DNA of 64,000 nt from Fibrobacter sp. UWP2. Its GTDB lineage: Bacteria; Fibrobacterota; Fibrobacteria; Fibrobacterales; Fibrobacteraceae. The notes below the pieces were generated by a model. It was not told the DNA's origin. It ran no database searches and worked only from the letters and a program-made list of their open reading frames with translations. Position 1 is the first letter of the stretch; each line of letters opens with the position of its first letter. Shown piece after piece: positions 5,020-58,400 of this stretch. Both the position numbers and the translations under genes were made by a program. Location of the stretch: assembly GCF_900141705.1 (NCBI RefSeq), contig NZ_FQYM01000001.1, positions 372,001 through 436,000 of the forward strand, given 5' to 3'.

Positions 5020-5568
5020 TTAAAACCAGAACCGCAGGCCTATGCGGAAGTAAAAGTCAGGAATCTCCCATTCCACATCACTATCGTCATGGCCTACATA
5101 GTCTTCGTCCCACCACAGGTAGTGGAACTCACCCACAGGGTTCAATTCCAAATAGAGCTGCAGAGGCATCACAGGGAATTCCCACTGGTAGCCGCCCACC
5201 ACGCCAAAGCGGATGGCAAGTCCACCATAATCCCAGCCGCTGTACGACTCGCCCCACCAGCCTAGACCGCCGGCAGGACCGCCATACACGCCCATGCGTC
5301 CAAGTTTACCGGGGACACCGGCAAAATAGTAGTTCCAATAATACCCCACGTAGCCGCCCAGCGAGTTGTCGCCGCTGCTAAAGTAAAAGTGCAGGTAGAT
5401 GTCGACCGTAATCAGGTCGCCCTGACGCAGTTCAAAATCCAGACCAAAACGTTCACCGGGATTGCCGGCTTGCGCCCAGCCACCAATACCCATGCTCTTG
5501 CCCGCGGCCTCGCTTTGGGCAAAGGCGGCAACAAAAGAAAACAACAAAACAGCAATTAACTTTTTCAT
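5020..5568 (-). CDS. small outer-membrane beta-barrel protein
   Basis: 182 aa. A cleavable signal peptide (Lys-Lys N-region, hydrophobic core, cleavage near AFAQ) precedes short amphipathic strands very rich in Gly, Tyr, Trp and Phe, and the protein ends in the terminal Phe (GLRFWF) expected of an outer-membrane barrel recognised by the BAM machinery. The size fits an eight-strand barrel. It is the first gene of the leftward four-gene envelope operon; a GGAGA Shine-Dalgarno lies 7 bases before the ATG. Specific function unknown. Confidence 0.8.
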   Translation of the reverse strand: MKKLIAVLLFSFVAAFAQSEAAGKSMGIGGWAQAGNPGERFGLDFELRQGDLITVDIYLHFYFSSGDNSLGGYVGYYWNYYFAGVPGKLGRMGVYGGPAGGLGWWGESYSGWDYGGLAIRFGVVGGYQWEFPVMPLQLYLELNPVGEFHYLWWDEDYVGHDDSDVEWEIPDFYFRIGLRFWF

Positions 5569-42721: not shown

Positions 42722-42982
42722 ATGGCTACAACAAAGAAAACCGTTGCTAAGAAACCCGCTGCCAAGAAGGCTGTTGCCAAGAAGGCTCCGGCTAAGAAGG
42801 CTGCTGCCGCTAAGAAGCCGGCTGCCAAGAAGCCCGCTGCCAAGAAGGCTGCTGCCAAGAAGCCGGCCGCCAAGAAGGCTGTTGCTAAGAAGGCTCCGGC
42901 CAAGAAGGCTGTTGCTAAGAAGGCTCCGGCCAAGAAGGCTGTTGCCAAGAAGGCTCCGGCTAAGAAGGCTGCTAAGAAGTAA
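42722..42982 (+). CDS. histone-H1-like Lys/Ala/Pro-rich DNA-binding protein
   Basis: 86 aa from the ATG at 42722. Composition is almost only Lys, Ala, Pro and Val, in repeats of [10 protein letters not shown] and [10 protein letters not shown], like eukaryotic H1 tails and bacterial Hc1/AlgP-type proteins. It should bind DNA or RNA non-specifically and compact the nucleoid. The DNA is itself repetitive with a 30-base unit, so copy number could change by slippage. It has a strong promoter, Shine-Dalgarno and terminator, which suggests high expression as a single unit. Confidence 0.88.
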
Positions 42983-54828: not shown

Positions 54829-57057
54829 TTATTCCGCATCCTTCAGGCAGCGGACGGAGACAGCTTCTTCTTCAACGCCATCGGGAAAAGCTGCACTCGG
54901 CAAGCTATAGACAAAATTAACAATGTACGTACAACCAGAGCAACCACTCGTTTTAGACGTCGTCGAGCTCAAAAACCAAGCATTCTGCTCCCTTCCATCA
55001 AACCCCCCAGCAACTCTTCGTCCTCCCGGGAGCGCCGAGAAACCATAGTCATCAGTACCGCGGCTGTCAACATCATCATAATAATAATCATCTTCTTTCC
55101 AATCTGATTTCGACTTAAGATGGATGGCAGCAGAGTCTTTCCCCTCCACCGCATCAAATAATGTTAGCCATTCATCATAGCTCGGCACGTGCCAGCCTCC
55201 GGGGCAAACACCACCTGCCATCTCAAGTGTTTTCCTTATTTTATAAAGACGACCGTACGTTTCACAATACTTATTAGTCGTCTGGGCATTATTTTCACCA
55301 TAGCAATAGCTGTCGTCCGTCTTGTAATTCAGATTCTGCGCCATCCAGGTCTGGTCGCCAATCTTGACCTTTCTGTACGTCTTGCCATCGCGGTTATCAA
55401 CGAAGTAATTTTCATCCAAAATGCAGCGGACGGAAAGAGCATAGTAATTTTTTCCAATCACAGAATATTTGGACATCGATGCAGAATCGACAGTATACTC
55501 CAATTTTAAACCATACGCGGAGTCAGATCCGAATTCTGTTTGACTCCAGAAATGGGCCGCGCCTTCTAAACCATAGTATTCACCATCACCCGAATAATTA
55601 CTCCAATAGCCAGCAGGCAGTGCCGAAAAGCCATACTCATCCGTTCCATCACCATCATTCTTCCAGCCGGAGTTCGTCTTGAGAGCCTTGCCCGCTTGTT
55701 TCGCACTACCACCACCCACAGATGAAATCAACTGTTCCCATTCATCTTTACTTGGCAAACTCCAGCCTTCGGGACAAAGATTTTTCGCATCATCCCACCT
55801 GTAAAGATGACCATATGTTGCGCAATTTTCATGAATGCCGCCAGGGCACAAAATCCCCCCCCCTTTAGCCATATTTTCCGCCATCCAGGTCCGGTTACCG
55901 ATTTCTACCGTCCTGTACGAAAAAGCAAAAGTACTTGGATCGGTCATTTTTCCATAGCTTATTCCTGAAGGAGGAACGTAGCTAGAAGACGGTTCCGCAG
56001 AACTGCTGCTCAATTTCACAGAACTACTGGACGAAGGCTCACCCTTTATGCAACGGACTGAACGACGACTCGCTATAAGATTTCCATCAATAGTTGGATA
56101 AGAGTCATCCCAATACATTCCCACAGACCACGCATCATAGCTGTTTTTCACTTCGCTCGTCCAGAAAGCAGCATCAATCTCTTTGCCCGCATACTTCACG
56201 TCAGATCCTGTATCCGAGCCTCCTGCAGCAAACGCAGAAAAGCCAAATTTATCATCTCCATTGCCATCGCTAGTCCAGCCTGACGTTGCTTTGAGGTGTG
56301 TAGCCGCAGTTGCCTTTCCACCCACCGACTCAAACAAAATGCTCCAATCGGTCGTATCCGGCAAGCGCCAACCTTCGGGGCAAACTTTCATAGCAGCATC
56401 CCACGAATAAAGGCGACCGTACATATCACAGTACTTGCTAGAATCTCTATAACAGGCGCTACCATCCACTTTGGCGTTCATATTTTCAGCCATCCATTCC
56501 TGGTCACCGATTTTGACTGTCCTGTACTTTTGCCCGTTGTAATCCAGCGTGTCGTAATTCGGCCCCGAAGGCGGGGTGTATGGAAGTATTGAAGAAGACG
56601 AAGACTCCACCGAGCTGCTTGATTCCGCAGAACTACTGGGCTGTTCTCCAGAGCTCTGGGTCGGGACGGTTCCAGAAGACAGCGGTTCAGCACCGCTCGA
56701 TGTCGGAACAGTTCCAGAAGACAGCGGTTCGGCACCGCTAGATGCAGGAACAGTGCCAGAAGACAGAGGGTCGGCACCACTCGACACAGATGCAGAAGAC
56801 GCGGGTGTCGTGCCGTGCGAACTCCCAGGATCAACGCCGCTGGACAATTCCGGGTTTTCAATGTCGCCGTATTCCAACGCAGCGAAGTTGTTGTCGAACT
56901 CTTCCTGGTAATCGGTACAGGCCGTAAGGAACGTCATGACAAGCGCCACAAGCGCACCTACAAGACGTATGGATCCTTCGACTCCACGCCTTACGGCGTT
57001 ACGCTCAGGATGACACTTCCCTAATTCCGAATTCCTAATTCCTAATTCCGAATTCAT
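54829..57057 (-). CDS. triple-FISUMP lipoprotein with repeat-derived N-terminus
   Basis: 742 aa. AGGAGG seven bases before the ATG fixes the start. The first 30 residues (NSELGIRNSELG, then CHPERNAVRRGVEGS) are translations of intergenic repeats; the true signal core follows and ends in lipobox LTAC (Cys near 47). A linker with three 14-residue repeats (SSGAEPLSSGTVPT) precedes three complete FISUMP domains (about 165-345, 365-545, 550-740), each ending in VRC(I/L). Ser-rich linkers join them. The three domains are divergent, so the duplication is old. It lies 12 bases after the gene for a two-helix-tail envelope protein. Confidence 0.85.
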   Translation of the reverse strand: MNSELGIRNSELGKCHPERNAVRRGVEGSIRLVGALVALVMTFLTACTDYQEEFDNNFAALEYGDIENPELSSGVDPGSSHGTTPASSASVSSGADPLSSGTVPASSGAEPLSSGTVPTSSGAEPLSSGTVPTQSSGEQPSSSAESSSSVESSSSSILPYTPPSGPNYDTLDYNGQKYRTVKIGDQEWMAENMNAKVDGSACYRDSSKYCDMYGRLYSWDAAMKVCPEGWRLPDTTDWSILFESVGGKATAATHLKATSGWTSDGNGDDKFGFSAFAAGGSDTGSDVKYAGKEIDAAFWTSEVKNSYDAWSVGMYWDDSYPTIDGNLIASRRSVRCIKGEPSSSSSVKLSSSSAEPSSSYVPPSGISYGKMTDPSTFAFSYRTVEIGNRTWMAENMAKGGGILCPGGIHENCATYGHLYRWDDAKNLCPEGWSLPSKDEWEQLISSVGGGSAKQAGKALKTNSGWKNDGDGTDEYGFSALPAGYWSNYSGDGEYYGLEGAAHFWSQTEFGSDSAYGLKLEYTVDSASMSKYSVIGKNYYALSVRCILDENYFVDNRDGKTYRKVKIGDQTWMAQNLNYKTDDSYCYGENNAQTTNKYCETYGRLYKIRKTLEMAGGVCPGGWHVPSYDEWLTLFDAVEGKDSAAIHLKSKSDWKEDDYYYDDVDSRGTDDYGFSALPGGRRVAGGFDGREQNAWFLSSTTSKTSGCSGCTYIVNFVYSLPSAAFPDGVEEEAVSVRCLKDAE
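56663..56788 (-). repeat. three tandem 42-base coding repeats
   Basis: Each unit encodes SSGAEPLSSGTVPT or a close variant. Two copies are nearly identical, the outer one has diverged. It sits in the linker of the triple-FISUMP gene. Confidence 0.8.
56971..57016 (-). repeat. dispersed REP-like repeat inside a coding sequence
   Basis: GTGTCATCCTGAGCG...GGCGTGGAGTCGAAGGATCC; translated as CHPERNAVRRGVEGS, a common outcome of the intergenic CCTGAGCG...GAAGGATCC repeat. Here it is in frame behind a well-placed start. Confidence 0.75.
57021..57055 (-). repeat. five tandem 7-base repeats behind a start codon
   Basis: GAATTCG or GAATTAG, five copies, beginning within the ATG of the triple-FISUMP gene. 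Change in copy number would alter the frame. Confidence 0.8.
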
Positions 57058-57064
57058 GTCGTCC

Positions 57065-57070
57065 CCTCCT
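57065..57070 (-). promoter_or_regulatory. Shine-Dalgarno deciding the triple-FISUMP start
   Basis: AGGAGG, seven bases before the ATG at 57057, overlapping the stop codon of the upstream gene. Confidence 0.8.
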
Positions 57071-58400
57071 AAAAAGCGATACTCAGGCCAAGCCCGATGC
57101 CGCCCAAAATTGCAATGCCAATACCTGCCGCGCGCACCTTCTGGTACTTGCCGATGTCATCATGCCGATTGTTGAATTCTTCCTGCGAAGAAGGCTGCTT
57201 CGTACTTTCGTCCTTCGCCTTCTTGTTGTAGATGACAGCAAGCGTCGAACCTGCGATGAGAGTCGCCGCCGAAATCCCGATAAGCACCCAGTGCGGGCCG
57301 TCCGATTTTTTCGCCTCGGGCAGGCCGTTGTCCACCTTGTCGCCCGCCTGCGGGGCAGTTTCTGCTACCGGAGCAGCGTTGGGCTCCGTTCCCGATGCGG
57401 CCACCACCTCGGACGCAACCGTCTTCGTGTTCATCTTGGGCATCGCCTTGATGGCCGTAGAATCGCGGCCCCAAATCCAGCGGCCCACGAGGTCGTTGCT
57501 CGCCTTCTCGAACTCCACACGGCCCTTGTAGGTGGCCATCTCGCCGTCGCGTCCCTTCGGGAACTGCACGGACTTGTCCTTCATGTCCACCAGCAGGTGC
57601 GCATTCTCCTTGCCCGAAGGAATCTGCGTCACGTTGAAGAGTTCGGCGCCGCTCAGGTAGTACGCGCCCGCCACCGGCCTGTTCAAGTCCAGGTAGAGCG
57701 AAAGGTCGCTCGTATCGAGAACCACCTTCAGGTTCGTCTTCGTGTTTAAAAGCGAGTCGTTCATGTGGTCGAGAGCCTGCACAAAGAGCGGAGCAAACTC
57801 GTCACCCGACTTGCGCAGCACAATGTCACCGCACTTCGAGAGCCAGAGTTCGGTAAAATGCTTCTGCTGGTCCATGCGGCGTCCGTCATAGCGCAGCTTG
57901 AAGTTGTAAGACGCATCGAACGCTCCCGCATGCGAGAGCGGTTCCAGGTCCACGCCGCCCTCGATTTTCAGGAGGTTCTCCTTGGAGGCGATAATGCGGG
58001 AAAAAGCGTCGGTACAAGCGTCAATCTGCTGCGTGCGCTGTTCCAGGTCGTTCGCCATAGTCACCACACCCAGGCGCAGCTCGCCGGTCACTTCCATATA
58101 GCGCGATTCGAATTCGGGGAGTTCCACGGCATAGAAGTGTCCGCACTCCTCGTCGAGCACGTCATTGATGGATACCATGCTACACCGGTCGTTCATTTTC
58201 GCGATGCGGTTCGCACGGGTAATCAAGGAATCCACCTCGGGGTTATCGCTCCCGATGCCCGCCTTCAACTGCTGCAAGTCGGCCTGTATCGCCTGGAATT
58301 CGGAGGCGTCCTTCACAAAGATAGATACCGTCGGGTCGGCAAAGGCCATGCCCGCAAGGCTGGCGCACGTCAACAAAAAAAGAGATAAATAACGTTTCAT
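57069..58400 (-). CDS. exported protein with two-helix C-terminal tail
   Basis: 443 aa. Signal peptide (AGMAFAD cleavage) and a large helical/beta mix; residues about 20-150 have coiled-coil character, and 165-320 are beta-rich. The last 85 residues contain a hydrophobic helix (VLIGISAATLIAGSTLAVIY), a charged loop of about 35 residues, and a final hydrophobic helix ending in AF. The PEGA proteins at 21984-24186 share this tail, suggesting a common membrane or assembly module. SD GGGAGAG and a -10 TATATT (58442-58437) give a leader of about 30 bases. Probably co-transcribed with the triple-FISUMP gene 11 bases downstream. No known family. Confidence 0.75.
   Translation of the reverse strand: MKRYLSLFLLTCASLAGMAFADPTVSIFVKDASEFQAIQADLQQLKAGIGSDNPEVDSLITRANRIAKMNDRCSMVSINDVLDEECGHFYAVELPEFESRYMEVTGELRLGVVTMANDLEQRTQQIDACTDAFSRIIASKENLLKIEGGVDLEPLSHAGAFDASYNFKLRYDGRRMDQQKHFTELWLSKCGDIVLRKSGDEFAPLFVQALDHMNDSLLNTKTNLKVVLDTSDLSLYLDLNRPVAGAYYLSGAELFNVTQIPSGKENAHLLVDMKDKSVQFPKGRDGEMATYKGRVEFEKASNDLVGRWIWGRDSTAIKAMPKMNTKTVASEVVAASGTEPNAAPVAETAPQAGDKVDNGLPEAKKSDGPHWVLIGISAATLIAGSTLAVIYNKKAKDESTKQPSSQEEFNNRHDDIGKYQKVRAAGIGIAILGGIGLGLSIAF

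Follow-up and report, generated by a model that had tools for sequence, protein, structure and literature searches.

How does the export signal of a lipoprotein gene come to be written in short repeats that otherwise lie between genes, and is that signal translated? The question arises from a 64,000-nt stretch of DNA from Fibrobacter sp. UWP2 (contig NZ_FQYM01000001.1, positions 372,001 to 436,000; hereafter the window), for which an earlier note had proposed that intergenic repeats were recruited as the N-terminus of a lipoprotein and that they might switch the gene on and off. The features of the locus, in window positions, are as follows.

57069..58400, minus strand: open reading frame of an upstream gene (443 aa) whose product has a signal peptide of its own and a hydrophobic C-terminus, the conserved partner used for finding junctions.
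57065..57070, minus strand: Shine-Dalgarno sequence AGGAGG, seen in the sequence, overlapping the upstream stop codon; its spacing to the ATG is also found in repeat-free relatives.
57055..57057, minus strand: start codon ATG of the lipoprotein reading frame, at a position conserved in relatives.
54829..57057, minus strand: open reading frame of a 742-aa lipoprotein with three FISUMP domains (PF09603 and TIGR02145, three stretches each).
57020..57055, minus strand: heptamer family A array, AATTCGG AATTAGG AATTAGG AATTCGG AATTAGG, encoding NSELGIRNSELG; dispersed in 6 of 41 genomes.
56971..57014, minus strand: REP-like palindrome REP1, GTCATCCTGAGC...GGATCC, 44 nt, encoding CHPERNAVRRGVEGS; it has other copies in its own genome and a predicted hairpin.
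56963..57040, minus strand: 78 nt (26 codons) missing from the L096 allele by alignment, with exact edges that depend on the alignment.
56920..56970, minus strand: remainder of the n- and h-regions and the lipobox, IRLVGALVALVMTFLTA, seen in the sequence; the h-region is homologous to that of L096.
56917..56919, minus strand: predicted lipidated Cys47 of the lipobox LTAC, from the sequence.

The TAG stop codon of the upstream gene (57071-57069, minus strand) is overlapped by AGGAGG, and the heptamer array and palindrome that follow the ATG are read open within the 742-aa frame (MNSELGIRNSELGKCHPERNAVRRGVEGSIRLVGALVALVMTFLTAC), as the earlier note had seen in placing the repeats in frame between AGGAGG/ATG and the signal core. 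Behind the hydrophobic core, the sequence and a simple lipobox script show a lipobox (LVGALVALVMTFLTAC), and we take LTAC with Cys47 to be the lipobox of this protein. Its description as a triple-FISUMP protein was borne out by both profile sets, with matches to PF09603 at 1.6e-73 (Pfam) and TIGR02145 at 1.6e-140 (NCBIfam). The upstream protein had no match in either set; homologues of its gene occur in 19 of the 41 genomes searched, its own counted, and the nearest named records (best identity 92%) are MAGs titled Fibrobacter. Its conserved hydrophobic C-terminus recurs, in many copies, before FISUMP lipoproteins. Two further tandem repeats lie in the window: a 42-bp unit in three copies (56660-56784) within the Ser/Pro/Ala linker of the 742-aa lipoprotein, where a multiple of three makes in-frame length change possible, and a 15-bp unit in 14 copies (42758-42973; GCTGCCAAGAAGGCT), Lys/Ala-rich and histone-H1-like by appearance.

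Five 7-base repeats had been counted behind the start codon; the array is there, on the minus strand, but it amounts to 4.7 imperfect copies of AATT[A/C]GG (units C-A-A-C-A; Tandem Repeats Finder: period 7, 92% matches, score 52), its longest perfect stretch spans about 2.6 units, and the range given above, taken from the repeat finder, shares one base with the start codon. The AATTAGG variant reads as TAG in one of the three phases, and both window units in that phase are AATTCGG. The array and palindrome are not chance sequence, because the 100-bp repeat stretch, compared with the 3.23-Mb genome it comes from (G000), is matched 13 times at E<=0.001 (itself included, hence 12 further places) and because AATTCGGAATTAGGAAT occurs nine times in 6 of 41 genomes, against none for the same string written backward. 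Copies in the same genome also stand in frame within two more open reading frames, L003 (about 1501-1550, C17) and L004 (about 1501-1543, C5), which by their motifs resemble tilS and coaBC; the tilS-like frame seemingly holds a second heptamer array, CAC-rich, further along. In several genomes, a small GC palindrome (AACG...CTACA) has copies of another heptamer, B, on its flanks, both in leaders and in intergenic DNA (L176, L184, L159 at about 7590, L206 at about 2044-2081), perhaps as one composite element. A heptamer followed by a palindrome was considered as a general intergenic composite and rejected: around the 58 intergenic palindromes of the sample, only five heptamer matches lay within 60 nt on the 5' side and four on the 3' side, so such a composite does not account for the order heptamer, palindrome, h-region that recurs in several leaders. 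Movement of REP1 by a RAYT was likewise not supported; the RAYT profile PF01797 has no match in G000, is matched in 7 of 25 same-genus genomes (G000 among the 25), and a flanking REP1 pair was found at none of the eight RAYT loci examined.

With the upstream 443-aa gene as anchor, junctions equivalent to that of the window were located and the sequence following the stop codon of this gene was examined. Many of the source genomes are MAGs, with one genome per species. At the closest loci, the Shine-Dalgarno sequence and the position of the ATG are kept while the leader is different each time: MKKIFALILAFLFAAC in UBA7003 (L094), MNSKLNVSALVAVSAVMFLSAC in RUG14609 (L096), MNSKLRFISLVFGLSSLISFSAC in G023 (L030), where a CT-rich heptamer encodes the core, and MLDERRKTRDERMNCHPGVSLWRTIGSMRLISVLAAFSAVMYFSAC in G006 (L032), where another heptamer family precedes a palindrome. 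The earlier note had called for a comparison with relatives that might hold a version without the insert, and such an allele is present in the close relative L096, whose alignment with the window has only one large gap, of 78 columns; the added stretch, put at about 30 residues before, is therefore real and measures about 26 against this allele. L094 also is without the insert, and in another family member L116 and L039 carry two consecutive palindromes that are missing from L109, a difference from L116 that could reflect decay instead of original absence. Inserts are shared by L039 and L116, and likewise by L048 and L112, so these junctions are not independent. Several repeat families follow one another in some leaders (L185, L186), and several recruited inserts hold no heptamer array at all (e.g., L039, L097). 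Signal peptides have a median length of 38 residues with repeats (22 loci) versus 19 without (35 loci). Lipoprotein genes outside the FISUMP pair have REP-made leaders as well (L083 and L144 in G020; L075 in G002; L152 in G006); L144 and L083 are related lipoproteins (GENTTTEKIV...) with different palindrome-made leaders. In a survey of the 800-kb sample and the window, however, most of 79 candidate lipoproteins (some plainly not lipoproteins) were without repeats, and the effect is thus concentrated in the FISUMP pair.

Of 62 distinct junctions collected, 59 were scored, L031, L095, and L177 being dropped because the script found no lipobox motif or the locus was not such a junction. Repeat patterns were matched between the upstream stop codon and the lipobox in 24 of the 59 leaders, compared with 1 of 59 downstream flanks and 0 of 59 upstream flanks of equal length; the regular expressions behind this count were written after some junctions had been seen, and it includes L036 and L094, with one 9-mer match each that is probably due to chance. 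Since part of the patterns derived from the data themselves, a library built with the junctions excluded served as a second measure (1,596 11-mers, each in at least three intergenic segments, from an 800-kb sample of six genomes). The library matched 17 of 59 leaders over 370 nt, versus 4, 7, 2, and 4 of 59 in four sets of flanks (46, 111, 22, and 44 nt), and when the leaders were dinucleotide-shuffled 200 times, 3.6 were matched on average and never more than 9. The leaders differ from three of the flanks at Fisher p values of 0.003, 0.04, and 0.0002, the flank with 7 of 59 differing weakly (p = 0.04). Library coverage was 62.9 nt/kb in leaders, 10-19 nt/kb at ordinary gene starts, and 7.9 nt/kb in gene interiors. 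Hand-made patterns had 7.13 hits/kb in leaders versus 0.49 in intergenic DNA, and on the library measure intergenic DNA, inflated by being the source of the library, had 102.8 covered nt/kb against the 62.9 of leaders; the enrichment that we claim is over coding sequence only (7.9-19.2 nt/kb).

If the repeats are translated, they should preserve the frame from the conserved start to the lipobox cysteine. In a set of 24 junctions, which includes L095, L180, and L187 as additions made by eye and omits L036 and L094, the frame from the conserved start is open to the cysteine in 23, versus 0 and 9 of 24 for the remaining two frames (9/48). With L186, whose frame runs unbroken for about 90 residues up to LLSAC, and L031 added, the start is open and in frame at 24 of 26 curated repeat-bearing junctions; one of the frames tested, that of L184, needs a GTG start. 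A third would be expected were the frame free (binomial 5e-10, a figure that is a guide, the loci being partly related). The exceptions are L098, in whose leader (5318-5460) a degenerate palindrome holds a TAG that stops the conserved start frame and the body is open in another frame, and G015 (L031/L089/L100), in which the heptamers run directly into the mature lipoprotein region (L089 8201-8260), the signal peptide is gone, and the body is open over 847 codons. Because the conserved start is open in frame to the cysteine at 24 of 26 junctions, translation of the repeats as n-regions, and sometimes as h-regions, is very probable. Together with the conserved start codon and the insert-free allele, this count lends good support to the earlier note's proposal of recruitment, which proves more general than it had supposed.

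Net charge before the last 18 residues is positive in 23 of 23 open leaders, and one heptamer family encodes DERRKTRDER, a charged n-region, when read one way and SLVFSLSSFVF, a hydrophobic h-region, when read the other; palindromes encode VILSVAKDL-like or CHPER...EGS-like stretches. In 15 leaders palindromes, of four kinds in all, run forward and in no leader do they run in reverse, whereas intergenic copies lying upstream of genes are split 14 forward to 17 reverse (Fisher p = 0.0002). Heptamer A is forward at eight loci and reverse at none. Heptamer B is forward at five, where it forms charged n-regions, and reverse at four, of which L030, L044, and L175 use it as part of the hydrophobic core and L036 has a single 9-mer match. 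This pattern fits selection for a usable leader; an insertion bias is a possible alternative.

Against this reading it may be argued that the repeats are an untranslated leader, the upstream ATG being idle and the true start lying behind them. G006 (L032/L099) has an in-frame ATG after the palindrome, with AGGA three bases ahead, that would yield a normal signal peptide, and a 2013 survey of REPs, in the portions available, urges the same caution, judging most N-terminal cases of GTAG- and CGTC-family REPs, short palindromes inside ORFs and often at the N-terminus, to be untranslated (PMC3733652). Yet AGGAGG/ATG right behind the upstream stop is retained in repeat-free relatives, the frame is kept far more often than by chance, the codon matching that ATG is ATA in the window and, after GGATCC, ATT in L121 and ATC in L185, and the downstream GTG and ATG starts of the window leave no basic n-region; we hold an untranslated leader to be quite improbable. 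The palindrome might instead be kept as an RNA element, its hairpin near the start stabilizing the upstream message or damping translation of the lipoprotein. REPs between operon genes act on mRNA, the window palindrome (GTCATCC...GGATCC) has a predicted hairpin of -14.8 kcal/mol (z -1.9), the lipoprotein start region folds better than shuffled versions of it (z -2.3; 5 of 200 folded equally well), and palindromes take one orientation only. These z-scores are modest, though, element-free alleles exist (L094, L096), and the same place is filled by different families, by heptamers that form no hairpin, and by h-region recruits such as the reversed heptamer B of L030, L044, and L175, all of which make this account unlikely.

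Slippage of the heptamer array as an on/off switch, the control that the earlier note had envisaged, has arithmetic in its favor: seven is not a multiple of three, either shifted frame stops inside the palindrome, and two relatives (L031/L100 and L098) have open bodies with the conserved start out of frame. Both of these are off for other reasons, however, one by deletion of the signal peptide and one by the TAG. The array is short and imperfect where a phase-variable switch would have a long, near-perfect one, no pair among the loci compared (one genome per species) differs by one unit, and several recruited inserts are without heptamers. Phase variation is arithmetically possible and not supported, and we consider it highly improbable. 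A further account has the leaders as scars, FISUMP genes having been swapped in behind a constant start through illegitimate recombination between short repeats, with intergenic DNA carried along. The array of G015 running directly into a mature region, the many FISUMP copies per genome, and the chained families of L185 and L186 speak for it, while the bodies at L029-L033 keep their syntenic partner and their DYQ.[EQ]F start whatever the leader, which looks like local insertion; recombination is a doubtful explanation that nonetheless carries some weight.

We return to recruitment by insertion and survival as the simplest account and the probable explanation: judging by sequence comparison, dispersed repeats have likely entered the 5' ends of FISUMP lipoprotein genes many times, and copies that keep the frame and stay basic have likely survived since the signal peptide is cleaved. 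The n-region of a signal peptide may vary in length, has basic charge as its one requirement, and is lost from the protein by cleavage. Non-autonomous Fibrobacter repeats, both heptamer arrays and REP-like palindromes, would repeatedly enter the first codons of these genes. Coupling to the upstream gene would keep the start codon in place, and an element landing behind it would therefore be translated in vivo. Copies competent for export would be those with the frame kept, no stop, and a basic n-region. Signal peptidase II would then cut off the added residues, leaving the mature lipoprotein unchanged and the insertion nearly neutral, so that the signal peptide may be a safe place for repeats inside a protein-coding gene, and some leaders may by now be largely repeat-made in the n-region and occasionally the h-region.

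Comparable events are known. In the portions of the sources available, Rickettsia RPEs are non-autonomous palindromic repeats found in frame in many genes of a tolerant host (PMC10969869, PMC2229807). The Fibrobacter repeats resemble them in these respects, being dispersed elsewhere in the genome and inserted in frame in a gene that exists without the insert (L096); in contrast, RPEs are about 150 bp long and, as far as those portions describe them, scattered over unrelated genes, whereas the Fibrobacter elements are short heptamers and 40-nt palindromes that cluster in signal peptides of a single lipoprotein family, with the palindromes in one orientation. By this analogy, we liken the insertions to RPEs as the same kind of event and do not file them as an RPE family. 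An RU-2 element forms part of the signal peptide of Yersinia YPO1552, with YPO2495 a weaker case, and the available part of that account describes a single locus, unlike Fibrobacter, with no recurrent independent recruitment and no tandem heptamers (PMC2759123). The Fibrobacter case differs from GTAG and CGTC REPs, as far as their survey was accessible, in that the upstream gene ties the start codon to one place and translation is supported by the frame test; we do not assign REP1 to either family. Tandem heptamers dispersed near start codons or ORF ends are described, in the accessible text, as TAACTGA in Beggiatoaceae and also in Xanthomonas and Nostoc (PMC4679880, PMC4692102); there they are mostly outside ORFs and differ in unit sequence, whereas those of Fibrobacter lie behind a start codon and are very probably translated. 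FISUMP domains are listed among the targets of diversity-generating retroelements (PMC4159848, in part), and the F. succinogenes S85 envelope proteome, in the portion available, includes a FISUMP protein for which no signal peptide was predicted (PMC4619616). A literature search, with most subscription journals outside its scope, gave, among the matches listed, no report of recurrent repeat-made lipoprotein leaders, and none of Fibrobacter with a heptanucleotide repeat, and nothing relevant to the repeat string or its encoded peptide appeared among the matches listed. The precedents are thus the Rickettsia RPEs and the Yersinia signal-peptide repeat, and what is new is recurrence across one lipoprotein family.

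In Fibrobacter of the rumen and gut, short repeats that are normally intergenic are found again and again, very probably translated, inside the export signals of a family of surface lipoproteins, apparently because a segment that is later cleaved can accept extra residues. For annotators, the caution is that such starts should not be trimmed as spurious. A more tentative thought is that the dispersed repeats might act as a working kit for signal peptides, from which a fast-evolving surface family keeps remaking its leaders, tuning or switching the display that faces phages, host, and fibre. The locus marks a low-cost site for non-coding repeats to turn coding, a piece of protein that gets cut off, and the natural series of signal peptides from 22 to about 90 residues, with matched insert-free alleles, offers a test of n-region tolerance and of the origin of new secretion signals in non-coding DNA.
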